Positions 22,228-45,954 of a DNA stretch of 64,000 nucleotides are shown in pieces (the stretch's first letter is position 1; each line of letters starts with the position of its first letter). The notes under the pieces were generated by a model. It worked only from the letters and a program-made list of their open reading frames with translations. It did not search any database and had not been told where the DNA came from. Origin of the DNA: Thermoanaerobacter sp. A7A (GTDB lineage: Bacteria; Bacillota; Thermoanaerobacteria; Thermoanaerobacterales; Thermoanaerobacteraceae). The position numbers and the translations under genes are program-made. The stretch lies in the NCBI RefSeq assembly GCF_000445185.1, contig NZ_AVAF01000122.1, positions 1 to 64,000 of the forward strand, given 5' to 3'.

Positions 22228-22242
22228 TGGCATGAATTTTGC
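22228..22242 (+). promoter_or_regulatory. Sigma-54 promoter upstream of crt
   Basis: GG at 22229-22230 (TTGGCAT context) and GC at 22241-22242 (TTTTGC) are separated by exactly 10 nt, as in TGGCAC-N5-TTGC. The 15-mer TGGCATGAATTTTGC recurs exactly upstream of hbd. Confidence 0.85.
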
Positions 22243-23068: not shown

Positions 23069-23076
23069 TACGTGGT

Positions 23077-23100
23077 GATAAAGGGTGATAACCCTTTATC
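23077..23100 (+). other. Intercistronic hairpin between crt and bcd
   Basis: GATAAAGGGT and ACCCTTTATC form a perfect 10-bp stem with a GATA loop. No T run follows, so an RNA-processing or stabilising role is more likely than full termination. Confidence 0.6.
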
Positions 23101-23146
23101 TGTAATCTTAAGTGTTAAAAAAATATCAAAAAAAGGAGGAATTTTA

Positions 23147-24289: not shown

Positions 24290-24301
24290 GGAGGAATTGC
24301 C

Positions 24302-25084
24302 ATGAATATACTTGTGTTTATAAAACAAGTGCCTGACACTAACGAAGTCAAGATAGATCCAGTTACAAAAACCCTTATAAGAGAAGGGGTTCCCAGCATA
24401 ATAAATCCAGATGATAAAAATGCTTTAGAAGAAGCTATAAGAATTAAAGAAGAATATGGAGCAAAAGTTATTGTCATAACAATGGGACCTCCACAGGCTG
24501 AAACTGCGTTAAGAGAGGCACTGGCTATGGGTGCCGATGAGGCATATCTTTTGACTGATAGAGTATTTGCGGGTGCTGATACTTATGCAACTGCCAAAAC
24601 TTTGTCAAAGATGGCTAAAAAATTTGACTATGACATAATATTCTGTGGTAGACAAGCTATAGATGGGGATACTGCGCAGGTAGGCCCCCAATTGGCTGAA
24701 CAGCTTAATATTCCTCAAGTGACATATGTTAAAGAAGTAGAAATTGAAGGTGATACACTTATCGTAAAAAGAGCACTTGAAGACGGATATGAAGTCATAA
24801 AAGTCAAAATGCCTGTGCTTTTAACAGCGATTAAAGAGCTTAATACTCCAAGGTATCCTTCTATAAAGGGAATATTTGAAGCGTATAGAGAAAAAGAAGT
24901 TAAAATTGTGACTGCTGCAGATTTAGGAGTAGATCCTCAAGAAGTTGGACTTAAAGGGTCTCCTACAAAAGTTATTTCCACAACTACTCCAGAGACACAA
25001 AGGGCAGGAGAAATTTTTACAGGCAATGTAAAGGAATGTGTGCAAAACCTTGTCCAAAGATTAGTTGAAAAGCATGTTATATGA
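24302..25084 (+). CDS. etfB: Electron transfer flavoprotein beta subunit
   Basis: The 260-residue EtfB opens with MNILVFIKQVPDTNEVKID and has the family signature region (VKRALEDGYEVIKVKMPVLL) and the AMGADEAYLLTD segment. It binds AMP or FAD at the subunit interface and passes electrons between NADH or ferredoxin and Bcd. The pairing with bcd suggests the electron-bifurcating type. Start ATG 24302 is behind AAGGAGG, and etfA follows after 15 bp. Confidence 0.95.
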   Translation: MNILVFIKQVPDTNEVKIDPVTKTLIREGVPSIINPDDKNALEEAIRIKEEYGAKVIVITMGPPQAETALREALAMGADEAYLLTDRVFAGADTYATAKTLSKMAKKFDYDIIFCGRQAIDGDTAQVGPQLAEQLNIPQVTYVKEVEIEGDTLIVKRALEDGYEVIKVKMPVLLTAIKELNTPRYPSIKGIFEAYREKEVKIVTAADLGVDPQEVGLKGSPTKVISTTTPETQRAGEIFTGNVKECVQNLVQRLVEKHVI

Positions 25085-25099
25085 AGGAGGCTGGAAAAA

Positions 25100-26107
25100 A
25101 TGAATGAATACAAAGATATATGGGTGTTCGCCGAGCAAAGAGAGCAAAGATTAATGAATGTATCTTTAGAGATATTAGGAGAAGCGAGAAAACTTGCTGA
25201 TAAAAAAGGTGTAAAAGCTTGTGCAGTGTTAATTGGATATGGTGTGAAAGGGCTGGCAGATGAATTAATCAAATATGGTGCTGATGTAGTGTATGTAATA
25301 GATAATCCCCTTCTTAAAAACTATACGACAGAAGGCTATGCAAAAGTCATTGCAGACCTTGTAAATGAGTTAAAGCCAGAAGCGATTTTGTATGGAGCCA
25401 CATATATAGGAAGAGACCTTGCACCAAGAATTGCTTCACGATTGCACACTGGCCTTACAGCAGACTGTACGGGACTTGATATAGATGAAAATGGATTGCT
25501 TTTACAAATACGTCCTGCTTTTGGAGGCAATCTCATTGCCACAATAATATGTCCAGAAAGAAGGCCTCAGATGGCGACTGTGAGGCCTGGAGTTATGAAA
25601 AAAGCTCCAAAAGACGGAAAGCGCAAAGGAGAAATCATAGAAATACAGGCAAATATTAAAGAGGGTGACATAAGGACCCAAATATTTGATATAATAAAAG
25701 AAGCGAAGAGTAAAGTAAATATAGAAGAGGCAGATATTATTGTTTCTGGAGGAAGGGGGGTAGGAGGAGCAGAAGGATTTAAGCTAATTCAGCAATTAGC
25801 TGATGCTTTAGGAGGAGTGGTAGGAGCTTCTCGTGCTGCAGTTGATGCAGGATGGATTTCCTCTGACCACCAAGTGGGGCAGACAGGTAAAACCGTAAGG
25901 CCAAAGCTTTATATAGCTTGTGGAATTAGTGGGGCGATACAGCATATTGCAGGCATGGGAAATGCAAAAACGATAGTTGCCATAAATAAAAATCCTGATG
26001 CACCTATTTTTAAAGTAGCTGATTATGGAATAGTTGGAGATTTATTTAAAGTAATACCGGCATTGATAGAGGAAATAAAGAGGATTAAAAATAACGAGAT
26101 GGCATGA
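25100..26107 (+). CDS. etfA: Electron transfer flavoprotein alpha subunit
   Basis: The 335-residue EtfA has an N-terminal alpha/beta domain ([20 protein letters not shown]) and the C-terminal FAD domain with [52 protein letters not shown] and [10 protein letters not shown]. It has no N-terminal ferredoxin extension. The last codons and stop overlap a second sigma-54 promoter that serves hbd. Confidence 0.95.
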
Positions 26108-26114
26108 ATTTTGC
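26100..26114 (+). promoter_or_regulatory. Sigma-54 promoter upstream of hbd
   Basis: TGGCATGAATTTTGC is identical over 15 nt to the element before crt, with GG at 26101-26102 and GC at 26113-26114 (10 nt between). It overlaps the etfA stop codon. Confidence 0.8.
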
Positions 26115-26124
26115 ATATATAAAA

Positions 26125-26160
26125 AAGAGGGCGGCTGACCTTTTGGCAGCTGACCCTCTT
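26125..26160 (+). terminator. Leader hairpin before hbd
   Basis: AAGAGGG (26125-26131) pairs with CCCTCTT (26154-26160), with an inner GGCTG/CAGCT pairing. Only a weak A/T tail follows, so it may attenuate rather than end read-through from etfA, or stabilise the hbd message. Confidence 0.5.
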
Positions 26161-26189
26161 ATAAATAAATTTAGAAGGGGTGTTTTAAA

Positions 26190-27035
26190 ATGCAAAAAAT
26201 ATTTGTAGTCGGTGCAGGTACAATGGGTTCGGGAATAGCCCAGGTATTTGCAGAAAATGGTTTCGATGTCATAATAAGAGATGTAGATATCAAGTTTGTA
26301 GAAAGAGGTTTAGGAGTAATTGAAAACAATCTCAAAAGAAGTGTTGAAAAAGGCAAAATTACAGAAGAAGAAAAAAATAAAGTTTTAGGAAGAATAAAAG
26401 GCACTGTTGACATTAATGAGGCGAAAGATGTTGACTTTGTTATTGAAGCAGCTATAGAAAACATGGAGATTAAAAAACAAATTTTTAAAGAGCTTGATAA
26501 CGTATGCAAAGAAGGTACAATACTTGCAACAAACACTTCTTCTCTTTCAATAACAGAAATAGCAAGTAGCACAGCAAGGCCTGAAAAAGTTATCGGAATG
26601 CACTTTTTTAACCCTGTGCCTGTCATGAAATTAGTAGAAGTTATAAAAGGCATGAAGACTTCTGAAGAGACTTTTAATACAGTAAAAGAGCTGGCGCAAA
26701 AGCTTGGTAAGACTCCTGTTGAAGTCAATGAAGCTCCTGGTTTTGTGGTAAACAGGATTTTAATTCCCATGATAAATGAAGCTATAGGAGTTTTAGCTGA
26801 TGGAGTAGCTTCTGCATCTGACATAGATGAAGCGATGAAATTAGGAGCAAACCATCCCATAGGACCTCTTGCTCTTTCTGACCTTATAGGCAATGACGTA
26901 GTTCTTGCAATAATGGATACACTTTATTCAGAATTTAATGATTCAAAATACAGACCCCATCCGCTTTTGAGAAAAATGGTTAGAGCAGGACTTTTGGGAA
27001 GAAAAACAGGGAAAGGATTTTTTGAATATAAATAA
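26190..27035 (+). CDS. hbd: 3-hydroxybutyryl-CoA dehydrogenase
   Basis: The 281-residue NAD(P)-dependent enzyme interconverts acetoacetyl-CoA and (S)-3-hydroxybutyryl-CoA. It has the Rossmann loop [20 protein letters not shown] (given as [16 protein letters not shown]), the catalytic His in [15 protein letters not shown] and the helical C-terminal domain with [15 protein letters not shown] and the substrate Asn in [10 protein letters not shown]. Length is typical of the clostridial enzyme. Start ATG 26190 is behind AGAAGGGGTG. It begins a second transcript with coaD and thl. Confidence 0.95.
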
Positions 27036-27065
27036 CGAATATAATCTAAAAAGGAAAGAATTGAC

Positions 27066-27545
27066 ATGAAAACAGCAATTTATCCAGGAAGTTTTGATCC
27101 AGTTACATATGGCCATATAGATATTATAAAAAGAGGAGCACTTTTATTTGACAAATTAATTGTCGCTGTACTTTTAAATCCAATCAAAAAGCCTTTATTT
27201 TCAATAGAAGAAAGAATTGAACTTTTAAAAGTTACAACAAAAAATATTCCTAATGTCCAAATAGATTACTTTGATGGCTTATTAGTAGATTATGCAAAAA
27301 AAGTAAAAGCTGATGTTATAATAAGAGGTTTAAGGATGATTTCTGACTTTGAGTATGAATTTCAAATGGCTTTAATTAATAAAAAATTAGATCCTTCAAT
27401 TGAGACAGTTTTTTTAATGACAAATGAGCAATACAGTTATTTTAGTTCTAGTGCAGTAAAAGAAATTGCTCAGTTCAGAGGGGGTTTTTCTAAATTTGTG
27501 CCTGAAATAGTAGCCCAGAAGTTAAAGGAAAAGTTAAACCCGTAA
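27066..27545 (+). CDS. coaD: Phosphopantetheine adenylyltransferase
   Basis: CoaD makes dephospho-CoA from 4'-phosphopantetheine, the penultimate step of CoA synthesis. The 159-residue protein has the nucleotidyltransferase TxGH motif as [36 protein letters not shown], and the ISSS-like [16 protein letters not shown]. Full length. It normally sits near rpmF or ylbM-type genes; here it lies between hbd and thl, both users of CoA esters, 30 bp after hbd and 15 bp before thl. Confidence 0.96.
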
Positions 27546-27560
27546 GGAGGATTGATTTGT

Positions 27561-28739
27561 ATGAGAGAAGTTGTAATTGTAAGTGGTGCGAGAACTGCAA
27601 TAGGAAAATTTGGAGGTAGTTTGGCCGGTATTCCTGTTGTAGACTTAGGAGCAATTGTTATAAAAGAGGCTTTGAAAAGGGCAAACATTGCTCCTGAACA
27701 AGTGGATGAAGTGCTTATGGGAAATGTAATACAAGCAGGACTAGGACAAAACCCAGCAAGGCAGTCGGCAGTGAAAGCAGGAATTCCAGTTGAAGTAACA
27801 TCTGCAACAATTAATATGGTTTGTGGATCAGGACTTAGAACTGTAGCAATGGCAGCACAGGCTATTATGACAGGAGATGCAGAAATAGTTGTTGCTGGTG
27901 GAATGGAAAATATGTCAAGAGCGCCATATCTTTTAAATGAAGCTCGATTTGGCTATAGAATGAACGATGGTAAAATAGTGGATTCTATGGTATACGACGG
28001 TTTAACCGATGTGTTTAATCAATATCTTATGGGTATAACAGCTGAAAATGTTGCTGAAAGATATGGAATTACAAGGGAAGAGCAAGACGAATTTGCGCTA
28101 AGAAGCCAAAAGCTTGCAGAAGCTGCGATTACATCAGGAAGGTTTAACGATGAAATTGTACCTGTTTTAATTCCTCAGAAAAAAGGCGATCCCATAGAAT
28201 TTAAAACGGATGAACATTATAGACCTGGTACAACATTAGAGGCTCTTTCTAAATTAAAACCTGCGTTTAAACCGAATGGAACAGTTACAGCAGGAAATGC
28301 ATCTGGCATAAACGATGGAGCAGCTGCTGTGGTTGTTATGTCAAAAGACAAAGCAAAAGAGTTAGGAATTACTCCACTTGCTACAATTAAGTCTTATGCT
28401 TATGCAGGTGTTGATCCAAGTGTTATGGGATTAGGTCCTATTTATTCTACAAGGAAGGCTCTTGATAAAGCAGGCTTAAAAATTGAAGACATTGACCTTA
28501 TAGAAGCTAATGAAGCCTTTGCAGCACAAGCGTTAGCAGTTGCAAAAGAACTTAAATTTAACATGAATAAAGTAAATGTCAACGGTGGTGCAATAGCTTT
28601 AGGCCATCCTATTGGTGCAAGCGGAGCTAGGATTTTAGTGACACTGCTTTATGAAATGAAGAAGAGAGGTTCCCATCTTGGGCTTGCGACACTTTGCATA
28701 GGCGGTGGTATGGGCATATCAATGATTATAGAAATGTAA
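27561..28739 (+). CDS. thl: Acetyl-CoA C-acetyltransferase (thiolase)
   Basis: Thiolase condenses two acetyl-CoA to acetoacetyl-CoA, or runs in reverse. The 392-residue protein has the acylated Cys in [16 protein letters not shown] (about residue 88), the His in [17 protein letters not shown] and the second Cys in [10 protein letters not shown]. Start ATG 27561 is 10 nt after AAGGAGG; the upstream TTG 27552 is too close to that site. It closes the butyrate-type gene set, and the sigma-54 activator follows. Confidence 0.95.
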
Positions 28740-28876: not shown

Positions 28877-30283
28877 ATGGGCAAGAATGTTGGCAAGTCG
28901 TTTTTGTTTAGTGAAAAAATGGAATTTTTATTTGAAAGTGTTTTTGACAAACTGCCAATTGCTTTTGATATACTTGATGCAGAAGGTAATATAAGAATGA
29001 TGAATAAAACGTTTTTAGATTTTTTAGGCTTGGAAAAAGAAAAAGTTATTAACAGATACGTATTGGACGTTGATCGAAACTCGCGATTTCCTCTTGTTTT
29101 GAAAACAGGACAGAACGAGATTGCCTATAGACATAAGTTTGCCAATGGAAAAGAAGCTATTGTGCATAGAATTGCGATAAAAGATGGCGACGAGGTTATT
29201 GGCGGTTTTGGAATGATTTTGTTTGAGGATTTAAATGAACTTAGAAAACTCATAGAAAAAAACAGGCTTTTAGAGACTGAACTTAATCACTATAAAAAAA
29301 CATTAAGAAAAATTCGTGGTGCCAGGTATTCATGGGAGAATATTGTTGGAAAAAGTGATGCAATAATTGAGTGTAAGAAAAAAGCTATAAAAATGGCTAG
29401 TATGGATTCCAATATTCTTATATATGGAGAAAGTGGGGTAGGGAAAGAACTTTTTGCTCAGGCAATCCACAATTCAAGTAGCAGAAGAGATTATCCCTTT
29501 GTAACTGTAAATTGTGCTGCTATACCAGAGCAGTTAATGGAATCAGAGCTATTTGGTTATGAAGAAGGCGCTTTTACAGGAGCTCAAAAAGGCGGTAAAA
29601 TAGGTAAGTTCGAGCTTGCAAATCATGGTACTATCTTTTTAGATGAAATAGGTGATATGCCGTATACAATGCAAGCAAAACTTTTAAGAGTGCTTCAAGA
29701 AGGAGAAATCGAAAGAGTAGGTGGCAAAGAACCTATTAGAGTTGATGTACGCGTAATATCAGCGACAAACAAAGACCTTACAAAACTTATTAAAGAAGGC
29801 AAATTTAGGAGTGATTTGTTTTACAGGATAAATGTATTAATGCTTAATGTTCCACCATTGCGTGAAAGAAAAGGAGATATTCCACTTTTGATAGATCATT
29901 TTTTGTACCTTTTGGCTCAGAATTCTGGAATATACAAAAAAATTTCTAAGGAAGTGTATGATATTTTGGAGAAATATGATTGGCCAGGTAACATAAGGGA
30001 ACTTAGAAATGCAGTTGAGCGAATGGTTGTCAATTCGGAAGGTGATACAATTAGGAAAACAGACATTCCTCTTTATATTCTAAACAAAGAGATACCCATA
30101 AGGAAGAAAGGGTCGGGACTTCAGCAAATGCTTGAAGAATTTGAAGAGAAGATAATCCTTGAGACTTTAAAAGAGTGTAACTATAATAAATCACAAGCAG
30201 CAGAAATATTAAAAATACCAAGGTCAAGACTTTATCGGAAGCTAAAAAAGTTTAATATTCTCGAAGATAATGAAGTAAAATGA
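28877..30283 (+). CDS. Sigma-54-dependent transcriptional activator (PAS, AAA+, Fis HTH)
   Basis: The 468-residue enhancer-binding protein has an N-terminal PAS sensor (about residues 15-120, LPIAFDILDAEGNIRMMNKT), a short linker, and the sigma-54 AAA+ domain (about 155-390). That domain has Walker A (YGESGVGKELFAQ), the GAFTGA loop that touches sigma-54, Walker B (TIFLDEIGDMP) and the DVRVISATNKDL and FRSDLFYRINVLMLNVPPLR regions. A Fis-type helix-turn-helix is at the C-terminus (NYNKSQAAEILKIPRSRLYR). It sits between two groups of genes with sigma-54 promoters and is their likely regulator. The PAS ligand is unknown. Confidence 0.95.
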   Translation: MGKNVGKSFLFSEKMEFLFESVFDKLPIAFDILDAEGNIRMMNKTFLDFLGLEKEKVINRYVLDVDRNSRFPLVLKTGQNEIAYRHKFANGKEAIVHRIAIKDGDEVIGGFGMILFEDLNELRKLIEKNRLLETELNHYKKTLRKIRGARYSWENIVGKSDAIIECKKKAIKMASMDSNILIYGESGVGKELFAQAIHNSSSRRDYPFVTVNCAAIPEQLMESELFGYEEGAFTGAQKGGKIGKFELANHGTIFLDEIGDMPYTMQAKLLRVLQEGEIERVGGKEPIRVDVRVISATNKDLTKLIKEGKFRSDLFYRINVLMLNVPPLRERKGDIPLLIDHFLYLLAQNSGIYKKISKEVYDILEKYDWPGNIRELRNAVERMVVNSEGDTIRKTDIPLYILNKEIPIRKKGSGLQQMLEEFEEKIILETLKECNYNKSQAAEILKIPRSRLYRKLKKFNILEDNEVK

Positions 30284-30492: not shown

Positions 30493-30508
30493 TTGGCACT
30501 TTTTTTGC
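30493..30508 (+). promoter_or_regulatory. Sigma-54 promoter of the maoC-liv operon
   Basis: TTGGCAC (30493-30499) then T7 and GC at 30507-30508, with exactly 10 nt between GG and GC; a close match to TTGGCACG-N4-TTGC. It lies 41 bp upstream of maoC. Confidence 0.88.
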
Positions 30509-30548
30509 TTTTACTATTTAGAGAAAAACAACTGAAAGGAGTAGCATT

Positions 30549-30965
30549 ATGGGGAAAACGATTAATGAATTAAAAATTGGTGACAAAGACTATTTTGAGA
30601 AAACAATTACAGAAACAGATGTATATTTATATGCTGGGATTACAGGTGATTTTAATCCTGCCCATATTAATCAGGTAGCATCTGAAAAAACGATGTTTAA
30701 GGGAAGGATAGCTCACGGAATGTTGACAGCGGGGTTAATTTCTGCTGTTTTGGGTACTAAGTTACCAGGACCGGGAACTATTTATCTTGGTCAAGAATTG
30801 AAGTTTACAAAACCTGTAAGGATTGGCGATACAATCAAAGCTGAGGTAGAAGTAGTAGAAATCATCCCTGAAAAAAATCGAGTTATATTAAAAACAATAT
30901 GTACAAATCAAAATAACGAAGTTGTACTGGAGGGCATGGCGACAGTACTTGCACCAAAGGAGTAA
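30549..30965 (+). CDS. MaoC-like (R)-enoyl-CoA hydratase
   Basis: The 138-residue hot-dog-fold protein has the hydratase-2 motif AGITGDFNPAHINQ with the catalytic Asp and His, followed by GRIAHGMLTAGLISAVLGTKL. Relatives such as PhaJ hydrate enoyl-CoA to (R)-3-hydroxyacyl-CoA. It could act on the product or substrate of the transporter operon it heads. It would not simply replace the damaged crotonase, because Hbd uses the (S) isomer. Start ATG 30549 is behind GAAAGGAG. Confidence 0.88.
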   Translation: MGKTINELKIGDKDYFEKTITETDVYLYAGITGDFNPAHINQVASEKTMFKGRIAHGMLTAGLISAVLGTKLPGPGTIYLGQELKFTKPVRIGDTIKAEVEVVEIIPEKNRVILKTICTNQNNEVVLEGMATVLAPKE

Positions 30966-35727: not shown

Positions 35728-36567
35728 ATGGCAAAAGTCAGAGTTAATAATATTGAATTATATTATGAAATACACGGAAATGGTCAACCTCTTGTACTAA
35801 TAGAAGGCCTTGGTTGTTCGAAATGGATGTGGTTTAAACAGATATATGAGTTAAAAAAGTATTTTAAGGTTATTGTTTTTGACTTGAGGGGTGTTGGTGA
35901 TTCTGATAAACCTGATATGGAATATTCTATTAAGTTGTTCGCTGATGATACAGCGGCTCTGGTAACAGAACTTGGGTTTAAAAAAGTTCACATACTTGGG
36001 GTTTCTATGGGTGGTTATATAGCACAAGAACTTGCTTTGGAATACCCTGCTCTTGTTGATAGGTTGATATTATGTTCTACTCATTATGGAGGACCAAATA
36101 TCGTGCCAATACCACTGTCCACTCTTAGCATTATGTTAAATGGAACAGGTGCAGGTAATGCACTGGAAAATTTGCGAATTGCTATGTCTTTAAGTTTTAG
36201 CGATGAATATCTTTCTACTCATAAAGATGAATTTGAACAAATTGTGAAATGGAAATTTGAAAAGCCGCAACCATTTTACGCTTACAAAAGACAATTTTAC
36301 GCTGGATTAGCATTTGATGAAGAATCAAGAGTTCATTTGATTAAATCTCCTACTTTAATAATGGCAGGTAAAGACGATAAAATCGTACCTTATGAAAATG
36401 CTCTTTTATTGCATTCAAAAATTGAGGACTCAGAAGTTGAATTTTTTGATAATGCAGGACACATGTTTTTTATAGAAAAAGCAGAGGAAGTGAATCAAAA
36501 AATTGTAGAGTTTTTAACAAAACCTATAGGAGGAGATGAAAAATGGAAAGAAAGAATATTAACGTAG
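35728..36567 (+). CDS. Alpha/beta hydrolase (first copy)
   Basis: The 279-residue protein has the alpha/beta-hydrolase fold with oxyanion region LVLIEGLGCSKWMW (the usual HG is replaced by EG), FDLRGVGDSDKP, nucleophile elbow GVSMGGYIAQELAL (Ser about 96), Asp in MAGKDDKIVP and His in NAGHMFFIEK. No signal peptide. Substrate unknown; esterase, thioesterase or C-C hydrolase are all open. ATG 35728 follows ATAGGAGG. Its end overlaps the next gene by 25 bp. Confidence 0.88.
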   Translation: MAKVRVNNIELYYEIHGNGQPLVLIEGLGCSKWMWFKQIYELKKYFKVIVFDLRGVGDSDKPDMEYSIKLFADDTAALVTELGFKKVHILGVSMGGYIAQELALEYPALVDRLILCSTHYGGPNIVPIPLSTLSIMLNGTGAGNALENLRIAMSLSFSDEYLSTHKDEFEQIVKWKFEKPQPFYAYKRQFYAGLAFDEESRVHLIKSPTLIMAGKDDKIVPYENALLLHSKIEDSEVEFFDNAGHMFFIEKAEEVNQKIVEFLTKPIGGDEKWKERILT

Positions 36568-37571
36568 GAATTGTTGGAACAGGACTTTACATTCCTGAGA
36601 CATATATGACAGCTGAAGATATAGCAAAAGAAACAGGTATACCTGAAGAAATTATAAAAACCAAATTTGGGATTATAAGAAAGCCTATACCGGGTCCGGA
36701 AGACCATACTTGTCATATGGGAATACAAGCGGCGAAAGATTGTTTGAGAAGAACTGGTGTTGATCCAAAAGAAATAGACCTCATTATATATATAGGCGAA
36801 GAACACAAAGAATATCTACTTTGGACATCTGGTATCAAATTACAATACGAAATAGGAGCAGAAAATGCGTGGGCTTTTGATATGGCGTTAAGGTGCGGTA
36901 CAGCAGTTGCAGCTTTGAAGATAGCGAAAGATATGATGGTTGCAGATGATAATATTAATACCGTTATGATTGCTGGTGGATACAGAAACGTTGACTTTAT
37001 TGATTATAAGAATCCGCGCGTATCCTTCATGTATGACCTTGCTGCAGGAGGAGGAGCAATTCTCCTTAAGAAAAATTATAATAGGAACATTGTACTTGAG
37101 GCATCAATTATAACAGATGGTTCCTTTTCTGAAGATGTTGCTGTTGTCGGTGGAGGGACAAAATATCCTGTAAGCCATGAAATGATTGATAAAGGACTAT
37201 ATAAATTAGATGTTTTGAATATGGAACATATGAAAAAAGGCCTTGAAGAAAAATCGATGCCTAATTTTTTAGGTGTGATTAAAGAATCTCTAAGGAAAAG
37301 CGGATATACACCTTCCGATATTGGCTATCTTGCGATACTTCACATGAAAAGGTCTGCTCATGAATTTATTTTAAATGAACTAGGCTTATCTCCTGACAAA
37401 TCGATTTACTTAGAAAACTATGGGCATATGGGTCAGATCGACCAGATACTTTCAACACAACTTGCACTAGAAGAAGGAAAAATAAAAGATGGTGATGTAG
37501 TAGTATGGGTAAGTGCAGGGATAGGTTATGTATGGGATGCAATTACAATAAAGTGGGGACCTATAGAATAA
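36543..37571 (+). CDS. KAS III / HMG-CoA-synthase-like thiolase-fold protein (first copy)
   Basis: The 342-residue protein has the thiolase fold of the FabH group: VGIVGTGLYIPETYMTAEDI at the start, a Cys at about 118 in MALRCGTAVAALK, a conserved His in AILHMKRSAHEF and VWVSAGIGYVWDA at the end. The Asn of the FabH triad is replaced by His in ENYGHMGQID. A Glu-rich segment (IGEEHKEY) falls near where HMG-CoA synthase keeps its catalytic Glu. It is therefore unlikely to be a housekeeping FabH and more likely condenses or cleaves CoA esters in this pathway. Confidence 0.8.
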   Translation: MERKNINVGIVGTGLYIPETYMTAEDIAKETGIPEEIIKTKFGIIRKPIPGPEDHTCHMGIQAAKDCLRRTGVDPKEIDLIIYIGEEHKEYLLWTSGIKLQYEIGAENAWAFDMALRCGTAVAALKIAKDMMVADDNINTVMIAGGYRNVDFIDYKNPRVSFMYDLAAGGGAILLKKNYNRNIVLEASIITDGSFSEDVAVVGGGTKYPVSHEMIDKGLYKLDVLNMEHMKKGLEEKSMPNFLGVIKESLRKSGYTPSDIGYLAILHMKRSAHEFILNELGLSPDKSIYLENYGHMGQIDQILSTQLALEEGKIKDGDVVVWVSAGIGYVWDAITIKWGPIE

Positions 37572-37609: not shown

Positions 37610-38905
37610 ATGGATTATAAAGAACTATACAAAAAGAAGTTAGTTTCTGTTGAAGAAATTTTATCAAAGATTAACAGTGGAGATGAAATTGTTTCTGCTA
37701 TGGCTGCTTCAGAGCCTCAAGGCATTTTAAGTAAACTCCATACTATAAAAGATAGAGTTGAAGATGTAACGGTTGTTGTATGTCTTCCAATGAAAGATTA
37801 TGAATTTTTTATGAATCCATCAATGAAAGGGCATTTTCTTACTGAATCATGGTTTTATACTGCAGGATTAAGGGAAGCACATAAATATGGAACAGTATCT
37901 TTTATACCCAATCATCTTCATTTAGCTTCAACAAAAAGATTACACTATAGAAAACCCAGGTTTTTCCTAGGCACAGCAACTCCAATGGATAAACATGGAT
38001 ATTTATCATTATCTTTAGGTATTACTTATGAAAAAGATATTCTTGAGAACGCTGATTATGTTGTTTTAGAGGTAAATGAAAACCTCCCAAGGACATATGG
38101 TGATACACAAATCCACATAAGCCAGGTGGACTTCATTGTTGAAAATCATGCTCCTGTTCCTGAAATTCCTATTGTAGAACCAAACGAAAAAGACAAAATA
38201 ATAGGGAATTATATAGCTGAGTTAGTAGAGGACGGCTCAACGATTCAATTGGGAATAGGTGGAATACCTAATGCTGTGGCAAAAGCACTTTTAAATAAAA
38301 AAGACCTTGGCATTCACACAGAGATGTTTACAGAAGGAATGGTAGATTTATTTGAAGCTGGGGTAATCACCAATAAGAAAAAGACCTTATGGAAAGGAAA
38401 ATCTATAGCTACATTTGCACTTGGTACTAAGAAACTGTATGATTTTATAGATGATAATATGGGAATAGAATTTCAAAGAGGCGCAGTTGTCAATGACCCA
38501 TATGTAATAGGCCAAAATTATAAAATGGTATCTATAAATACTGCACTGCAAGTAGATTTAACAGGTCAAGTTTGTTCAGAATCTCTGGGTATAAGGCAAT
38601 TCAGTGGGACGGGGGGACAAGCAGACACGGCAGTAGGGGCACAAATTTCAAAAGGAGGAAAATCAATAATAGCACTGTACTCATCAGTAAAAAACGATGC
38701 TATATCTACAATAGTTCCTGTGCTGACAGAGGGTGCTGCAGTGACTCTTTCAAGAAATGATGTAGACTATATTGTTACAGAGTATGGCATTGCAGAAATG
38801 AGAGGACGGTCAATAAGAGATAGAGTCAGAAATTTAATAAACATTGCTCATCCTAAATTTAGAGATGAACTTAAAGAGAAGGCTAAAGAGCTTATGATAT
38901 GGTAA
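37610..38905 (+). CDS. Acetyl-CoA hydrolase/transferase family CoA-transferase
   Basis: The 431-residue enzyme belongs to the family of butyryl-CoA:acetate and 4-hydroxybutyrate CoA-transferases. Visible are the glycine loop QLGIGGIPNAVAKALL, the probable catalytic Glu in HTEMFTEGMVDL and the CoA-contact regions RQFSGTGGQADTAVGAQISK and VTEYGIAEMRGRS. It should move CoA between acetyl-CoA or a product CoA ester and an imported carboxylate. It could also take over the last step of butyrate formation lost with butyrate kinase. Start ATG 37610 follows ACAGGAGG. Confidence 0.88.
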   Translation: MDYKELYKKKLVSVEEILSKINSGDEIVSAMAASEPQGILSKLHTIKDRVEDVTVVVCLPMKDYEFFMNPSMKGHFLTESWFYTAGLREAHKYGTVSFIPNHLHLASTKRLHYRKPRFFLGTATPMDKHGYLSLSLGITYEKDILENADYVVLEVNENLPRTYGDTQIHISQVDFIVENHAPVPEIPIVEPNEKDKIIGNYIAELVEDGSTIQLGIGGIPNAVAKALLNKKDLGIHTEMFTEGMVDLFEAGVITNKKKTLWKGKSIATFALGTKKLYDFIDDNMGIEFQRGAVVNDPYVIGQNYKMVSINTALQVDLTGQVCSESLGIRQFSGTGGQADTAVGAQISKGGKSIIALYSSVKNDAISTIVPVLTEGAAVTLSRNDVDYIVTEYGIAEMRGRSIRDRVRNLINIAHPKFRDELKEKAKELMIW

Positions 38906-38954: not shown

Positions 38955-40166
38955 ATGAAGAAGCTAAGAGTATTTCCTTTATTGGTAATAATGTCGTTGT
39001 TATTATTTCAAGGACATTATAAAGCAACATCATATTTTGACCCAACACCAATAAAAACATTTACAGACTCCAAATACTGGACTAAAGTGGAACTTTTAAG
39101 GGATAGCAATCCTAACATAGGACAAGAAAAATTCATAACAGATAATCAACAGAAGGATTCAGAAATCATCAAAGAATTTAACAACAATCCTCAACCAAAT
39201 TCGCAATATTTTTTGCTCCATTATGCACCGGGTTGGGATACAGGCACAAAGCCATATCCTGTAATTCTTGTTCACGGTGCTGGTTCTGATGCAAACTTTT
39301 TTGCAGATCCTAAAAGAGATGGTTCGATTACTGGTTTGATGCAATATCTTTCGCAAAGAGGTTATAAGGTCTTTGCTGTTACATTTGCGCATCCTCATGG
39401 GGACAATTACATTCAAAGAGAGATTCTTGCTGATGCGATTCAGAAGGTTAAGGCTGTAACAGGAGCAAGTAAAGTTGATATTATAGCACATAGTAAAGGC
39501 AATATGTCTGCGAGAATGTACGTATCAAATGTCAAAAAATCATGGGGAGTTGATTTTGGAAAAGATGTGAGAAGATATATCCAGCTGGGAGCTCCAAATG
39601 GTGGAATTGACTTTACTTTTAGGAATCCAAATATGGCATGGGGTATAATAACAACTAGAGGATTTGGACCTGTTCCTTATACTTATATGTTGATTTATGG
39701 ATTATGGTATAATACCACCTATCACAGTATATATACAGAAGGTGGTGCCTATCCAGGACAACTTCAGATGTTAGCAAGATGGGATAGTGTATATCCTCTA
39801 AATACAACGCAGCAAGATTGGTATACAACTTATTATGGAGGATGGGGATTTGCTAGTTATTCCTATGGGATAGATTATGCAATTAAAGAAGGTGGGAATC
39901 TTATTAATACATTACAGAATTCCCCTGTAGATCCTTCTGTAGAAATGGCTGTGTTGGCTGGAGATTATAATTATATAAATGGTGTTCCGTGGGAGACCAC
40001 AGGGCCCAGTGATGGATTAGTATTTGTAAAAAGTGCTACTGATACATCGGCAATGACAAAATCAGGAGCAAAACTTTTAGCGAAAGACGTATACCATTTA
40101 AATCACCTTGAGCTGGCATATGATAAATCAGCTATGGATTGGATAGATGCACAATTGTCAAAATGA
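38955..40166 (+). CDS. Secreted lipase / depolymerase-like esterase
   Basis: The 403-residue protein has a signal peptide (KKLRVFPLLVIMSLLLFQG). Its alpha/beta-hydrolase core has the oxyanion stretch PVILVHGAGSDANFF, the nucleophile elbow IIAHSKGNMSARMYVS (Ser about 180, AHSxG rather than GHSxG), an Asp in GPSDGLVFV and a His in HLNHLELAYD. The AHSxG elbow and a Tyr/Trp-rich lid-like insert recall thermostable lipases of anaerobic thermophiles and the PhaZ7-type PHB depolymerase. It is the only exported enzyme of the operon and probably frees the acid that the Liv transporter imports. AAAGGAGG precedes ATG 38955. Confidence 0.85.
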   Translation: MKKLRVFPLLVIMSLLLFQGHYKATSYFDPTPIKTFTDSKYWTKVELLRDSNPNIGQEKFITDNQQKDSEIIKEFNNNPQPNSQYFLLHYAPGWDTGTKPYPVILVHGAGSDANFFADPKRDGSITGLMQYLSQRGYKVFAVTFAHPHGDNYIQREILADAIQKVKAVTGASKVDIIAHSKGNMSARMYVSNVKKSWGVDFGKDVRRYIQLGAPNGGIDFTFRNPNMAWGIITTRGFGPVPYTYMLIYGLWYNTTYHSIYTEGGAYPGQLQMLARWDSVYPLNTTQQDWYTTYYGGWGFASYSYGIDYAIKEGGNLINTLQNSPVDPSVEMAVLAGDYNYINGVPWETTGPSDGLVFVKSATDTSAMTKSGAKLLAKDVYHLNHLELAYDKSAMDWIDAQLSK

Positions 40167-40279: not shown

Positions 40280-41176
40280 ATGTGTAGAGTAATATATAAA
40301 AAAATTGCTTTACCAAATGGAGAGGAAATTGGTTACAGAGAAAGAGAAGGAGGAAAAGACGCAATAATTTTTGTTCATGGTAATCTAGTTTCATCAAAAT
40401 ATTGGGAAAAATTTATGCAAAGATTTCCTGAAAATTTTAAACTTTATGCAGTAGATTTAAGAGGAGCAGGAATCTCTTCATATAACAAGCCTATTGAAAC
40501 AATGAGGGATTTTTCTGAAGATATATGGCTTTTTTCACAAGAAATGAATATCAAAAAGTTTATTCTTGTAGGGTGGTCGATGGGCGGAGTAATTTCTATG
40601 CAACTAGCGGCTGACCACCCTGATTCAGTAAAAAAATTGATTCTTGTAAGTTCACCATCTTGCAAAGGTATACCATTTACAAAAAAAGATGAAGAAGGTA
40701 AAGTGATACCGGGTGAATATTGGAAAACAAAAGAAGAAGTGTTTAATGATAAGGTACAAGTTTTACCGCTAGTGTATGCGTTGAGGTCGGAGAATAGGGA
40801 AATAATGAAAAATATTTGGGATTCTGCTGTGTTTAACTATAAAAAACCTGAAGAAAACTATTATAAAGAGCTCATAGAAGATATTTTTACAGTAAGAAAT
40901 TATCCTGATTGTGCATGGGCAACTCAGATTTTTAATATATCTCACCTTCATAATGGTGTGGTCACGGGTACAGGGGAAGTAGACAATCTAAAGATGCCTG
41001 TATTGTTATTATGGGGAGAATATGATGTAATCGTAAAAAAAGAGTATAGTGATGAAACATCAAAAGAAATCGGGGAGAATGCCCATGTTGTAGTTATTGA
41101 AAATGCGGCTCATAGTGTGTTTATTGATAATGAAGAACAAACATTAAAGGTTATGCTAGACTTTATTGAGAAATAG
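40280..41176 (+). CDS. Alpha/beta hydrolase (second copy)
   Basis: The 298-residue cytoplasmic protein has AIIFVHGNLVSSKYWEKF as oxyanion region, YAVDLRGAGISSYNKP, nucleophile elbow VGWSMGGVISMQLAA (Ser about 99), an acid in LLWGEYDVIVKKE and His in ENAAHSVFIDNEE. It is distantly related to the first copy but has the normal HG. Together with the following KAS III-like gene it repeats the hydrolase-synthase pair found at 35728-37571. Start ATG 40280 follows AAAGGGGG, after a 113-bp gap without a visible terminator. Confidence 0.88.
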   Translation: MCRVIYKKIALPNGEEIGYREREGGKDAIIFVHGNLVSSKYWEKFMQRFPENFKLYAVDLRGAGISSYNKPIETMRDFSEDIWLFSQEMNIKKFILVGWSMGGVISMQLAADHPDSVKKLILVSSPSCKGIPFTKKDEEGKVIPGEYWKTKEEVFNDKVQVLPLVYALRSENREIMKNIWDSAVFNYKKPEENYYKELIEDIFTVRNYPDCAWATQIFNISHLHNGVVTGTGEVDNLKMPVLLLWGEYDVIVKKEYSDETSKEIGENAHVVVIENAAHSVFIDNEEQTLKVMLDFIEK

Positions 41177-41192
41177 GGGAGGAGATGAATAT

Positions 41193-42173
41193 ATGAGAAG
41201 AGCGCGAATCATAGGAGTAGGAAGTTATCACCCAAAAAATTTGATAACAAATGAAGAACTGTCAAAAAGAATAGGAGAACCGATAAGCATAAATTTTGAA
41301 AAAAAGGTTGGAATACTGCAAAGATATATAACTGGATCGGATGAAAGTACTGCAGACCTTGCATATGAAGCAGCTAAAAGAGCCCTTGAAATGGCAAATG
41401 TATCACCGAAGGATATTGATTTGATAATTTTAGCCACAGATACTCCCGAGTATATTACTCCTCCAACTTCTGCAATTGTACAAGGAAGGCTTGGAGCAAT
41501 AAATGCTGGCTTTTTTGATATAAATGCTTCTTGCGCTGGATTTGCAGGCTCTCTTGCAGTTGCATCAAAAATGATTATGGCTGATGATTCATTAAATAAA
41601 GTCTTAGTTATTGGTGCATATAACATGAGCAAATTTATTGACTATAATACACCCGGACTTTCGGCCATATTTGCGGATGGTGGTGGAGCGGTTGTACTTA
41701 CTTCAACAGAAGAAAATGCCGGGTTTTTAGCATCCAAATTCATAGGAGATGGTACCCAATATGATTTTCTAGGTATATATGATGGTGGTGCAAAAAATCC
41801 ATTTAAAAAAGACAATCCTAAAGACCAGCTTTTGACATCTTTCAAGCCTCTTCCTCCAGATAGAAACCTTAAAATGTGGCCTCCTCTTGTAAAGGAAGTT
41901 GTGGAAAGAGCGGGTTATAAAGTTGAAGATATTGATCATATTTTCTTTACTCAGATAAATAAGTCGGTAATATTAGAGGTTATGGATACATTAGGGCTTG
42001 ACCGGTCAAAAGCAACTACTATTATGGAAAAGTACGGCTATACTGGTTCAGCTTGTCTTCCTATGGCTTTAGATGATGCAGTAAAAAATAATAGGATAAA
42101 GAGAGGAGACCTAATTGTTTTTGTAGGTTCAGGAGTAGGATTTTCTATGGCTGCATCAGCTTTTATATATTAA
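41193..42173 (+). CDS. KAS III-like thiolase-fold protein lacking the catalytic His and Asn (second copy)
   Basis: The 326-residue protein keeps the FabH-type fold and nucleophile, Cys114 in FFDINASCAGFAGSLAVA, and the closing FVGSGVGFSMAASAFIY. Where FabH has His (PHQAN), this protein has FFTQINKSV. Where FabH has Asn (GNTSAAS), it has KYGYTGSACLP. Only the Cys of the Cys-His-Asn triad remains, so decarboxylative condensation is unlikely; acyl transfer or a partner role with the first copy is possible. ATG 41193 follows GGGGAGGAG; the longer frame from 41166 overlaps the upstream gene. Confidence 0.82.
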   Translation: MRRARIIGVGSYHPKNLITNEELSKRIGEPISINFEKKVGILQRYITGSDESTADLAYEAAKRALEMANVSPKDIDLIILATDTPEYITPPTSAIVQGRLGAINAGFFDINASCAGFAGSLAVASKMIMADDSLNKVLVIGAYNMSKFIDYNTPGLSAIFADGGGAVVLTSTEENAGFLASKFIGDGTQYDFLGIYDGGAKNPFKKDNPKDQLLTSFKPLPPDRNLKMWPPLVKEVVERAGYKVEDIDHIFFTQINKSVILEVMDTLGLDRSKATTIMEKYGYTGSACLPMALDDAVKNNRIKRGDLIVFVGSGVGFSMAASAFIY

Positions 42174-42210: not shown

Positions 42211-43023
42211 ATGACCCTTATTGATGCGTTTAAAAAAATAGCACCTTTTATTAATATAATGACAACAGAGGATCTAGGTATATCAATATGTGATATTAAT
42301 GAATGCGTATTATATTTACCTGGTAAAAAAATTAATCATAACATAAAGGTAGGAGATCCTTTAAAAGAGGGTACCGCTATATATGAAGCAATAAAAAGTG
42401 GAAAACGTATTGTTAGAAGAGTGGGAAGCGAAGTGTATGGTTTCCCATATATTGCTATAGCATTTCCGCTGAGAGAAAACGGTGTAATAACAGGAGGAGT
42501 AAGTATATTTCAATCGACAGCAAAACAGGATGAGATAGCAAATATAACTGAAAAAGTGTTTTCTTCATTGCAGCAGATTCACTCTATGATACAAGAGATA
42601 TTTCTAATTTCAAAAAATGTATCTGAAATAAGCGATGAAGCCTCAAAGCTTGCAGAATATGCAAAAAATAATGCTCAATCTACTGACGAGCTTATAGACT
42701 TTATTAAACATATCTCTTCAGAAACAAATTTATTGGGCTTAAATGCGGCAATAGAAGCTGCGAGAGTTGGTGAGAGTGGCAAAGGGTTTACAATAGTTGC
42801 AAATGAAATAAGGAAATTATCTATGTCAACCAAAGACTCTGTAGAATCTATAAACAATGTACTTATAAAACTTAAAGAAATAAGTTACAAAATTGATAAA
42901 AATATGAAAGAAATAAAGAATACAAATGTGAATCTATATAAACTTATAGAAAATGCGAATAGTGAACTTGAAGAAATAAACAAAATGTTTGAGGAACTTT
43001 ACAATAAAACGCGACTTTATTAA
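42211..43023 (+). CDS. Soluble chemoreceptor-like protein (MCP signalling domain)
   Basis: The 270-residue protein has no membrane helix. The N-terminal part (about residues 1-120) looks like a small sensor domain, and the C-terminal part is a short MCP signalling coiled coil with [20 protein letters not shown] and [12 protein letters not shown], resembling the soluble YfmS-type receptors of Bacillus. It may couple chemotaxis to the compound handled by the operon upstream. A fragment of butyrate kinase begins 6 bp after its stop codon. Confidence 0.85.
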
Positions 43024-43028
43024 ATAAG

Positions 43029-43181
43029 ACATATAGTGGGGAATTTGTAACACTTATAAAAGATAGAGTAAATTTTATAGCATCTATTTATGTATATCCG
43101 GGAGAAGAGGAAATGCTAGCTTTAGCTCAAGGGGCTTTGAGAGTTTTAAACGGTGAAGAAAAGGCAAAAGAATATGTATAA
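43029..43181 (+). pseudogene. buk: Butyrate kinase C-terminal remnant
   Basis: A reading frame with no start or ribosome site encodes about 50 residues that read like the extreme C-terminus of butyrate kinase, including [20 protein letters not shown] and [20 protein letters not shown], then stops at TAA 43179-43181 before a terminator. The other 300 or so residues of the kinase are missing. It is best read as the 3' stub of a deleted buk whose terminator is now used by the chemoreceptor-like gene. Confidence 0.85.
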
Positions 43182-43303: not shown

Positions 43304-43762
43304 ATGGATAAGTTGACGATTTGGGAAGTATTTTTGTTTTCAGTGCCAGAGGCAGCAGTTATAATAAGTATTGCTTTTGGTTTAGGGGGAGTAAAGTTTA
43401 AGCCAAAAGAGATTTTGTATATAAGCTTACTTACTGGAATCATATTGTACTTTATAAGGCCATTGGTCAGTAGTTATATTATAAATGTTATACTTTATAT
43501 CGGGGTATTAATGATTTTGTTTTTGGTATTTAAAGTTATGGACTTTTTTAAAGGCATGATGAGCGTTATTTTATCCGTCTCCATTTATTTAATAATAGAA
43601 TATCTAAATGTTACGGCAATTCAATTTTTATTTGATATAGATCCTGTAATTTTATTGAAGGACTATGTCTTACGATTTGTGTGTTTTTTACCCCAATTAT
43701 TAACAGCAATTTTGATTTCTTTTGCTATACGCAAATATAAACTTTATTTATTTACAGAGTAA
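43304..43762 (+). CDS. AgrC-receptor-like membrane protein without a kinase domain
   Basis: The 152-residue protein is almost wholly hydrophobic, with about five membrane helices. Its features look like the N-terminal receptor half of clostridial AgrC kinases: the opening WEVFLFSVPEAAVIISIAFG, a central FLVFKVMDFFKGMMSVILSV and the last helix RFVCFLPQLLTAILIS. It lacks any kinase domain and ends after a basic tail (IRKYKLYLF). The response regulator begins 21 bp later. I infer a receptor subunit that acts with the short kinase at 44514. Confidence 0.75.
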   Translation: MDKLTIWEVFLFSVPEAAVIISIAFGLGGVKFKPKEILYISLLTGIILYFIRPLVSSYIINVILYIGVLMILFLVFKVMDFFKGMMSVILSVSIYLIIEYLNVTAIQFLFDIDPVILLKDYVLRFVCFLPQLLTAILISFAIRKYKLYLFTE

Positions 43763-43783
43763 TGCATTGGGAGATGAATTTAT

Positions 43784-44494
43784 ATGTTAAGAATAGTTAT
43801 TGCAGAAGACGATATAAATTTTAAAAAAGAACTCATAAAAATTCTTTTAACAATGGAAGGCGTAAGTGTTGAATATTCTACAGGAGACGGAAATGACGCA
43901 TTAGAAGCATTAATTAAAATTAAACCGGACGTTGCTATTTTAGATATAGGATTACCAGGAATATCGGGCATTGAGGTGGCGAAAAAGATTAGAGAATACA
44001 TGCCTTTTTTGGAAATAATTTTTATTACGTCCTTTGAGGAATACATAAAAGATGCTGTGAGACTTTATGCTTCTGATTATATTGAGAAGCCTCTTGATGA
44101 GAAGAGGCTGAGAGAAACTTTGGATAGGATAAAGAAAAAACTTTTGGAAGTAGAAAATGTCATCCCTTTTAAGACGGAAGATGGAGTAAAGCTTATCAAT
44201 CCAAAGGAAATTTATTGTGTTCAAGCCAGTAAAAAAAGGAGCATAGTTTATACCCAAAAAGAAAAATTTATATGTGATTATTCTTTAAAAGAAATAGAGG
44301 AATTGTTAGATAGTAGCATGTTTTTTAGAACAAATCGATCTTTTCTAGTGAACCTCTTTAAAGTTGAGCTGTTGAAAGATAACAATAGGACTTCCTTTGA
44401 GATACGTCTTAAAGGTTCAAATTATAAGGCTTATCTCTCTAAAGAATTGTATGAAGAATTTAGGAGGAGAGTAAAAGCTATTTACAAATCATAG
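43784..44494 (+). CDS. LytTR-family response regulator (AgrA-like)
   Basis: The 236-residue regulator has a receiver domain (IAEDDINFKKELIKIL, phospho-acceptor Asp in VAILDIGLPGISGIEV, Thr/Lys positions IFITSF and YIEKPLDE) and a C-terminal LytTR DNA-binding domain (about residues 135-236, VQASKKRSIVYTQ, FFRTNRSFLVNL). LytTR regulators bind pairs of 9-bp direct repeats; such repeats stand before agrD at 46115-46144. It is encoded between the receptor-like protein and the kinase. Confidence 0.92.
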   Translation: MLRIVIAEDDINFKKELIKILLTMEGVSVEYSTGDGNDALEALIKIKPDVAILDIGLPGISGIEVAKKIREYMPFLEIIFITSFEEYIKDAVRLYASDYIEKPLDEKRLRETLDRIKKKLLEVENVIPFKTEDGVKLINPKEIYCVQASKKRSIVYTQKEKFICDYSLKEIEELLDSSMFFRTNRSFLVNLFKVELLKDNNRTSFEIRLKGSNYKAYLSKELYEEFRRRVKAIYKS

Positions 44495-44513
44495 TTAGAT
44501 TGGAAGAGGTTTT

Positions 44514-45377
44514 ATGTTTAAGGATAGTTACAAAAATGCGATGATGATTTATGTAGTGCAAATGGTATTGATAGTAATACTAGTAAACAACAATTTTATG
44601 AAAAGTCTTGATGTATTTCAGCCAAAAAATCAAGAGTTGTTTAGGATTTTCATAGGAATTTTAATTTTTATATTGAATGGGTTTTCTATTTTTGTGTTAA
44701 GAGAGCTGTATGCTAAAAATAAAGAAGAACGTCAATTTTTGATAAATAGTATTAGATTTAAATACATAGAAGAGCAAAATCGCATCTATAGGCAAAATCA
44801 CCATGATATTAAAAATCACTTGATAATTATTTCTGAATTAGTCAAGGAAAAAAGATATAGTGAACTGGAGAATTATTTGTCTTCATATATGGAAGAAATT
44901 GATAAAAATTTAGTGACGATAAACACAGGTGTAAATGAAATTGATATATTGCTTTATTCGAAAATAAGTAATGCTAAGAGTAAAGATATTGAAGTGGATT
45001 TTAAATGTGATACACAAATCCAGTGCAGCAAAAAACACGTGCTTAATTTAGTTTCGGTTTTAGGAAATTTAATAGACAATGCAATAGAGGCTTGTGATGA
45101 AATGGAAAAAGATAAATACATAATTATAGAGATGAAAGAAGACCCAATAGATTACATATTTCACATAAAGAATAGATATAATTTTCAAACAAATGTAAAA
45201 CCATCCATCTTTTTTGAAGAAGGGTTTTCTACAAAAGAGGGTAGAGGCAGAGGAGAAGGATTGTATATTGTCAGAAATATAGTAGAAAAGTATAGCGGTG
45301 AAATAGAAGTACAAACCGATGGAGGTTATTTTGACGTTATTGTAGAAATTCCCAAATTTTCTTTGGAGGGTGATTAA
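44514..45377 (+). CDS. GHKL sensor histidine kinase with only two membrane helices (AgrC-like)
   Basis: The 287-residue kinase has two N-terminal membrane helices (about residues 10-30 and 42-62). The dimerisation/phosphotransfer helix carries YRQNHHDIKNHLIIIS with the phospho-accepting His of the AgrC type. The GHKL ATPase domain has LVSVLGNLIDNAIEAC (N box) and GRGRGEGLYIVRNIVEKY (G box). Typical AgrC kinases have six or so helices before this domain; here most of the receptor seems to be supplied by the 43304 product. Its stop overlaps agrB. Confidence 0.9.
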   Translation: MFKDSYKNAMMIYVVQMVLIVILVNNNFMKSLDVFQPKNQELFRIFIGILIFILNGFSIFVLRELYAKNKEERQFLINSIRFKYIEEQNRIYRQNHHDIKNHLIIISELVKEKRYSELENYLSSYMEEIDKNLVTINTGVNEIDILLYSKISNAKSKDIEVDFKCDTQIQCSKKHVLNLVSVLGNLIDNAIEACDEMEKDKYIIIEMKEDPIDYIFHIKNRYNFQTNVKPSIFFEEGFSTKEGRGRGEGLYIVRNIVEKYSGEIEVQTDGGYFDVIVEIPKFSLEGD

Positions 45378-45954
45378 AATTAATATCGAAAAGTTAGCTG
45401 AGAGGTTAACACAAAGACTGTTTAAAACGCAAAATTTAACGGATATTGAAATGGCAAAAATACAATATGGTATAAGCTTAATTTTAGGGGTAATAATTGA
45501 ATTTACTTTAGTTTATGCTATTTCTTTAATATTGGGGTTTGGCTTTTACACTGTAGTAATAATGCTTTCTGCTTTTTTTTTGAGAATAAATACAGGAGGA
45601 GCTCATTGTTCAACCTATAATAGATGTGTAACTTTTACGGCAGTTTATTTCATACCTTTTGCTGCTTTAGCAAAATTTGTAGATATACATTTTCCTTTAG
45701 AATTTAAAGTTTTTACAAGCCTATTGTTATATTTTATAGTTTTAGCGATAGTGAAGGATAATAAATTTTACAGGGTTATAATTCTGAGTTTAGTTGGTAT
45801 AAATATTTTTTTATTTTTCGCCAATTCAATAGTCTATATTAAAATATTGTTTTTAGTATCTATAGGTTTTACACTACAAGCTGTTATGAGGACTACATTA
45901 GGAGAAACTATAGTAAAAATTGCAGATACGTTGTTTAAAAAAGCAGGGATATAA
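45370..45954 (+). CDS. agrB: AgrB-type peptide-processing membrane protease
   Basis: AgrB cuts and cyclises the AgrD propeptide in the membrane. The 194-residue protein has several hydrophobic helices and the catalytic His and Cys in RINTGGAHCSTYNRC, which follows the expected FFLR. It starts at GTG 45370, overlapping the kinase gene; the GGAGGG site is very near, and a rare ATT at 45379 has the better spacing. Its substrate is encoded at 46209. Confidence 0.93.
   Translation: MIKINIEKLAERLTQRLFKTQNLTDIEMAKIQYGISLILGVIIEFTLVYAISLILGFGFYTVVIMLSAFFLRINTGGAHCSTYNRCVTFTAVYFIPFAALAKFVDIHFPLEFKVFTSLLLYFIVLAIVKDNKFYRVIILSLVGINIFLFFANSIVYIKILFLVSIGFTLQAVMRTTLGETIVKIADTLFKKAGI

Follow-up and report, generated by a model that had tools for sequence, protein, structure and literature searches.

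FabH, which initiates fatty-acid synthesis and has the KAS III fold, needs a histidine and an asparagine residue to decarboxylate malonyl-ACP. In HMG-CoA synthase, the glutamate of a TES motif is the catalytic base. For PqsBC it has been found that the acylation of the PqsC cysteine is hardly slower when the histidine is missing (PMC4807248), and CerJ, which has a catalytic set equivalent to that of ChlB3, moves malonyl onto a sugar hydroxyl (PMC9573744).

The window analysed here is a stretch of 64,000 nucleotides from Thermoanaerobacter sp. A7A. It encodes two KAS III-fold proteins in the same operon, KS1 (41193-42173) and KS2 (36543-37571), both on the forward strand. A search of open-access papers gave none on this gene cluster, and none that names PRK06840, the family of KS2.

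An invariant Cys-Thr-Tyr site in a separate KAS III family

The open reading frame of KS1 (P0001) is intact and encodes 326 amino acids, and both KAS III domains of Pfam, PF08541 and PF08545, are found above cut-off, in agreement with the first-pass annotation, which had called the product KAS III-like. The AlphaFold2 model (pLDDT 80.7, with residues 187-220 poorly modelled) has the FabH fold and superimposes on 4dfe with a Z-score of 42.0 over 311 residues at 2.1 Å. The best-matching solved structures are FabH proteins, with about 28-36% identity and Z-scores of about 42. However, KS1 scores below the cut-offs of both FabH models, with 225 against 292.1 bits for TIGR00747 and 241.5 against 249 bits for PRK09352. 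KS2 belongs to NF005308 (PRK06840; 542.4 bits against a cut-off of 315), while KS1, with 206 bits, is a non-member. KS1, KS2, and FabH form three separate groups in a maximum-likelihood tree, with moderate support for KS1 (90/87, a single group in 97% of the bootstrap trees) and 100/100 for each of the other two. KS1 is a widespread cross-phylum family of its own on the known KAS III fold, apart from FabH and KS2. Three loci (L163, L166, and L206) carry two KS1 genes of different subtypes.

The residues of KS1 were mapped by alignment to FabH from E. coli MG1655, and the FabH triad Cys112/His244/Asn274 then corresponds to Cys114/Thr253/Tyr283. It had been claimed from the first reading of the sequence that only the cysteine of the triad is kept, that this residue stands in its normal FabH context, and that a tyrosine is found at the asparagine position, all of which agrees with the alignment. 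The glutamine proposed for the histidine position was off by one residue. The gapless alignment of FabH PHQANLRI with KS1 FTQINKSV makes Gln254 the normal glutamine of HQAN and Thr253 the replacement of the histidine, and a glutamine in this role is thereby ruled out.

The KS1 homologues were collected by scanning the GTDB species genomes with two motifs made from the KS1 alignment, one over each altered position, which gave 80 loci. They come from Bacillota, Spirochaetota, Bacteroidota, Ignavibacteriota, Bdellovibrionota, and other phyla. The triad columns read Cys/Thr/Tyr in 94 of 94 KS1 homologues and Cys/His/Asn in 49 of 49 FabH sequences. When it comes to bias from the scan, the 39 sequences matched by the YTG motif alone all have the threonine, and the 24 matched by the TQINK motif alone all have the tyrosine. 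Another 11 KS1 sequences, found as neighbours of KS2 and not by motif, are also all Cys/Thr/Tyr (three of these are near-identical orthologues from the same genus). Orthologues with the full triad, which would have spoken against the first-pass annotation, are absent among the 94 sequences. This invariance argues that the altered site is the result of neither chance nor decay.

At several other columns, including those of Asp83, Met145, Asn225, and Ser313, KS1 has a residue which is conserved to 90% or more and is rare in FabH. Going from E. coli FabH to KS1, the changes are T81 to D83, L142 to M145, A216 to N225, H244 to T253, N274 to Y283, and F304 to S313, at positions which line the pocket in FabH structures. 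The position of FabH F87 is a serine or threonine in KS1. The FabH residues T28, W32, R151, K214, R249, and K256, the contacts to CoA and ACP in the same structures, are not conserved in KS1, and a CoA donor is thus not assured. Asp83 is found in 94 of 94 sequences, while the same column is mostly valine in FabH (threonine in E. coli) and mostly glutamate or glutamine in KS2. It is a candidate residue which might take over a catalytic role.

The model of KS2 (pLDDT 93) matches the structures of FabH, BioZ, and PqsC about equally well. The first-pass annotation had read this protein as keeping the cysteine and the histidine and having a histidine for the asparagine, and these residues are recognized as Cys118, His267, and His295, with the register of His267 relative to FabH His244 uncertain by one residue. 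It had missed Asp300, which like His295 is invariant among the KS2 homologues. Cys118, His295, and Asp300 are of the same kinds as Cys113, His296, and Asp301 of ChlB3, with the same spacing between histidine and aspartate, and the KS2 profile matches ChlB3 at 1.2e-19 and CerJ at 6.3e-19. Neither CerJ nor ChlB3 is among the best 50 structural matches of the KS1 or the KS2 model, which is no argument against kinship. In three KS2 relatives (L103, L104, and L117) the nucleophilic cysteine is replaced by serine; DpsC also has a serine in this place.

The operon and its relatives

The operon is transcribed from the forward strand, as are the butyryl-CoA genes and the activator gene upstream of it. 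It starts with a MaoC-type hydratase (30549-30965), followed by a Liv-type ABC transporter consisting of two permeases, two ATPases, and a binding protein of PF13458 (30996-35656), and an alpha/beta hydrolase whose nucleophile motif is GVSMG and the gene of which overlaps the start of KS2 with its 3' end (35728-36567). After KS2 come a CoA-transferase of the butyryl-CoA:acetate type (37610-38905; its 311 bits fall short of the equivalog cut-off, 675) and a Lipase_2-family protein, the N-terminus of which is hydrophobic and signal-like (38955-40166; a weak PhaZ7-like match of 36 bits against a cut-off of 450). A second alpha/beta hydrolase (40280-41176) is a predicted depolymerase, since it belongs by score to the intracellular short-chain PHA depolymerase model NF050089 (357.4 bits, cut-off 300); the hydrolases of two other clusters reach 94 bits with this model. 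KS1 comes next and is followed in Thermoanaerobacter by a protein with an MCP signalling domain (42211-43023, forward strand). Terminator-like sites within the operon were no more numerous than in shuffled sequences.

Upstream of the operon are the butyryl-CoA genes crt-bcd-etfBA-hbd-thl (22496-28739) and a gene for a PrdR/AtoC-like sigma-54 activator with a PAS domain (28877-30283). The only perfect match in the window to a sigma-54 promoter of the -24/-12 type, TGGCACTTTTTTTGCT (30494-30509, forward strand), ends 39 bases before MaoC. The operon thus has both the promoter sequence and an adjacent activator gene. In other Bacillota, sigma-54 sites with no or one mismatch recur upstream of maoC, livH, hydrolases, an SDR gene, or KS2. 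The main text of a survey of sigma-54 regulons in Clostridiales mentions neither Thermoanaerobacter nor "oxoacyl" genes (PMC6615313). Sites with one mismatch are found at 22228 upstream of crt and at 26100 upstream of hbd, and also in L094, a locus of the same genus; judged from these sequences, sigma-54 may control the butyryl-CoA genes as well.

The last 50 codons of a butyrate kinase gene remain at 43029-43178 (forward strand), and this remnant shows 94% identity to its intact counterpart in L091. The related loci L091-L093 keep a butyrate kinase of 355 amino acids after the MCP-domain gene, while no other butyrate kinase above cut-off is found in the present genome. Further downstream, an agr-like region (43304-45954) was recognized by eye from the translations, with a LytTR-type response regulator (43784-44494), a sensor kinase (44514-45377), and an AgrB-like membrane protein (45370-45954).

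In the relatives, the CoA-transferase adjoins KS1 and KS2. The gene order in Bacteroidota is thiolase, SDR, sodium-solute symporter, CoA-transferase, KS1, and KS2, with a hydrolase further on, while Fulvivirga and Ignavibacteria have KS1 together with an SDR, a symporter, an AMP-forming ligase, and a hydrolase, and without KS2. A rule that KS2 always goes with the CoA-transferase, and KS1 alone with the AMP ligase, fails in its general form. In eight loci of Bacillota, KS2 is accompanied by a ligase and the CoA-transferase is missing, yet the latter is present in 37 of the 37 longer loci (>15 kb) from the motif scan that carry KS2. On two haloarchaeal plasmids (L131 and L132) the KS2 genes directly follow Liv transporter genes, and in one of these clusters an AMP ligase, a hydrolase, and MaoC are encoded too.

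Possible reactions of KS1

With an invariant cysteine and neither the histidine nor the asparagine, KS1 should remain capable of being acylated, and should not be capable of decarboxylative condensation. It is tentatively proposed that KS1 could be a non-decarboxylating cysteine acyltransferase in the catabolism of (R)-3-hydroxybutyrate or its oligoesters, which is the best of the readings considered, although we give it somewhat less than even odds. The first-pass annotation had also suggested a non-decarboxylating acyltransferase. This part of it gains indirect support from the invariant replacement of the residues for decarboxylation, the invariant cysteine, and the analogy to PqsBC.

In such an enzyme the acyl group would be taken onto Cys114 and then passed to a second acceptor, and the transfer might be helped by the polar residues that replace the FabH pocket (Asp83, Thr253, Tyr283, Asn225, and Ser313). 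The sigma-54-controlled operon as a whole probably imports and degrades (R)-3-hydroxybutyrate or short polyesters. The hydrolases would open the esters, and the acid would be activated by the CoA-transferase, or by an AMP-forming ligase in other species. MaoC and Bcd/Etf would then reduce part of the substrate to butyryl-CoA, while the remainder would be oxidised by Hbd or an SDR plus thiolase. The likeliest task for KS1 would be to exchange the oxygen ester and thioester linkages of 3-hydroxyacyl units, by which the energy stored in the ester would be conserved. Formation of an oxygen ester from a thioester is known for a KAS III-like enzyme, and the opposite direction is only implied. KS2 might carry out a related reaction with its ChlB3/CerJ-like Cys-His-Asp set.

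The proposed substrate, (R)-3-hydroxybutyrate or its oligomers, is suggested by MaoC, the SDR of the relatives, Bcd/Etf, thiolase, butyrate kinase, and the PHA-depolymerase-like hydrolase. PHA synthase (TIGR01836, E up to 1e-10) gave no match in this genome and four others of the genus, which suggests that the polymer would be external. Thiolytic breakdown of PHB has been reported for R. eutropha, in work cited in PMC3430594. Given the low scores of the hydrolases in the other clusters with the depolymerase model, 3-hydroxybutyrate may not be the substrate everywhere, and the butyrate kinase and C4 genes also fit other C4 or short-chain acids.

A broader and more doubtful proposal is that KS1 and KS2 are new catabolic branches of KAS III, which by ester-thioester exchange, or by C-C cleavage with the aspartate as base, would allow polyesters of (R)-3-hydroxybutyrate to be harvested with less ATP. 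If true, this would be an enzyme step not described so far, present in anaerobes as well as in many other bacteria. The relatives of KS1 and KS2 are annotated as "3-oxoacyl-ACP synthase" and would therefore be counted as genes for fatty-acid synthesis. No description was found of the KS1 family, which combines the invariant Cys-Thr-Tyr and aspartate with ties to genes for transport, CoA activation, and C4 oxidation. Should KS1 be an acyltransferase, it would offer a direct test of how the thiolase fold shifts from condensation to acyl transfer, and possibly a missing step in the bacterial use of 3-hydroxybutyrate or PHB.

The main rival reading, which we regard as unlikely, is that KS1 forms or cleaves C-C bonds in a non-decarboxylating way, as HMG-CoA synthase or thiolase does, with Cys114 carrying the acyl group and Asp83 acting as the base that forms the carbanion. 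Asp83 is invariant in the 94 sequences, at a position where FabH mostly has valine, and the KS2 column is mostly glutamate or glutamine. An alignment with HMG-CoA synthases had been called for in the first-pass annotation. The closest available protein for this, an HMG-CoA-synthase-like protein of Fulvivirga, was used; HMG-CoA synthase proper was found in none of 119 genomes of the phylum. With the cysteines aligned, Asp83 falls on the acidic residue of the TES motif, in a weak profile alignment which is not significant by itself (probability 1%). The Glu-Cys-His set is, however, incomplete in KS1, as the position of the catalytic histidine, located through the FabH alignment, is a threonine. 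Furthermore, a normal thiolase is already encoded at 27552-28739, and no gene for HMG-CoA lyase or reductase is found among the annotated neighbours.

Independence from KS2 and comparison with known systems

The two altered proteins of the operon had also led to the suggestion of a heteromeric enzyme. An obligate heterodimer of KS1 and KS2, after the manner of PqsB and PqsC, is improbable. The pair shares an operon, PqsBC provides a precedent, and the presence of the CoA-transferase in the 37 longer KS2 loci means that the three genes travel together. Nevertheless, KS2 above its family cut-off is lacking anywhere in 14 of 16 genomes with KS1, which were chosen since their KS1 locus showed no KS2, and KS1 is lacking in 19 of 20 genomes with KS2 (the KS1 of the exception, G087, is also Cys/Thr/Tyr). 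Draft metagenome-assembled genomes may miss a gene, but hardly this consistently. In a genome of the same genus (G025), KS2 and the CoA-transferase are present, while KS1 and the neighbouring PHA-depolymerase-like gene are absent; at the corresponding place, between the lipase and MCP genes, its locus L094 has a divergent Liv set. With each protein found without the other in whole-genome searches, an obligate pair of the PqsBC type was rejected, and KS1 must be able to work without KS2. A facultative complex may form where both occur.

It is similarly hard to believe that KS1 has lost all catalysis and acts as a regulator or scaffold. Two of the three catalytic residues of FabH are indeed lost, but neither Cys114 nor the rebuilt pocket varies between the several phyla, unlike in a decaying site, and a considerable share of the clusters have no KS other than KS1. 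The fold and the closest solved structures would point to an additional FabH of the ordinary kind, serving fatty-acid synthesis, but this can be set aside, since KS1 falls below both FabH cut-offs, has lost the triad and the ACP contacts, and sits in a catabolic operon, while a regular fabH is present elsewhere in the genome. The genes for uptake and for C4 oxidation speak against olefin synthesis of the OleABCD type, where a KAS III protein occurs with an alpha/beta hydrolase, an AMP ligase, and an SDR, and this reading was dropped.

When KS1 is compared with the described systems, it shares with FabH the full-length fold and the nucleophilic cysteine, at about 28-36% identity to the best solved structures. 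It differs in His244 to Thr, Asn274 to Tyr, Thr81 to Asp, Phe304 to Ser, and Ala216 to Asn, in the lost CoA and ACP contacts, and in being encoded in a degradative operon. The "3-oxoacyl-ACP synthase" family PRK06840 (NF005308) has KS2 as a full member (542 bits, cut-off 315), while KS1 (206 bits) is outside it. HMG-CoA synthase has in common with KS1 the cysteine and, in the weak alignment, the acidic character of the position of its catalytic glutamate (Asp83 in KS1), but KS1 lacks the catalytic histidine and is closer to FabH by sequence.

PqsBC resembles KS1 in having an altered FabH-like triad, and in PqsC the acylation of the cysteine is independent of the histidine (PMC4807248). PqsC nevertheless keeps this histidine and is paired with PqsB, while KS1 is without it and occurs without KS2. 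The Cys113-His296-Asp301 set of ChlB3 has its counterpart, by residue kind and spacing, in Cys118-His295-Asp300 of KS2 (PMC9573744). KS1 has Tyr283 and Cys288 in the columns of His295 and Asp300 and so has no such triad, and the genes of both KS1 and KS2 are found in catabolic clusters, unlike those of CerJ and ChlB3, which belong to antibiotic biosynthesis.
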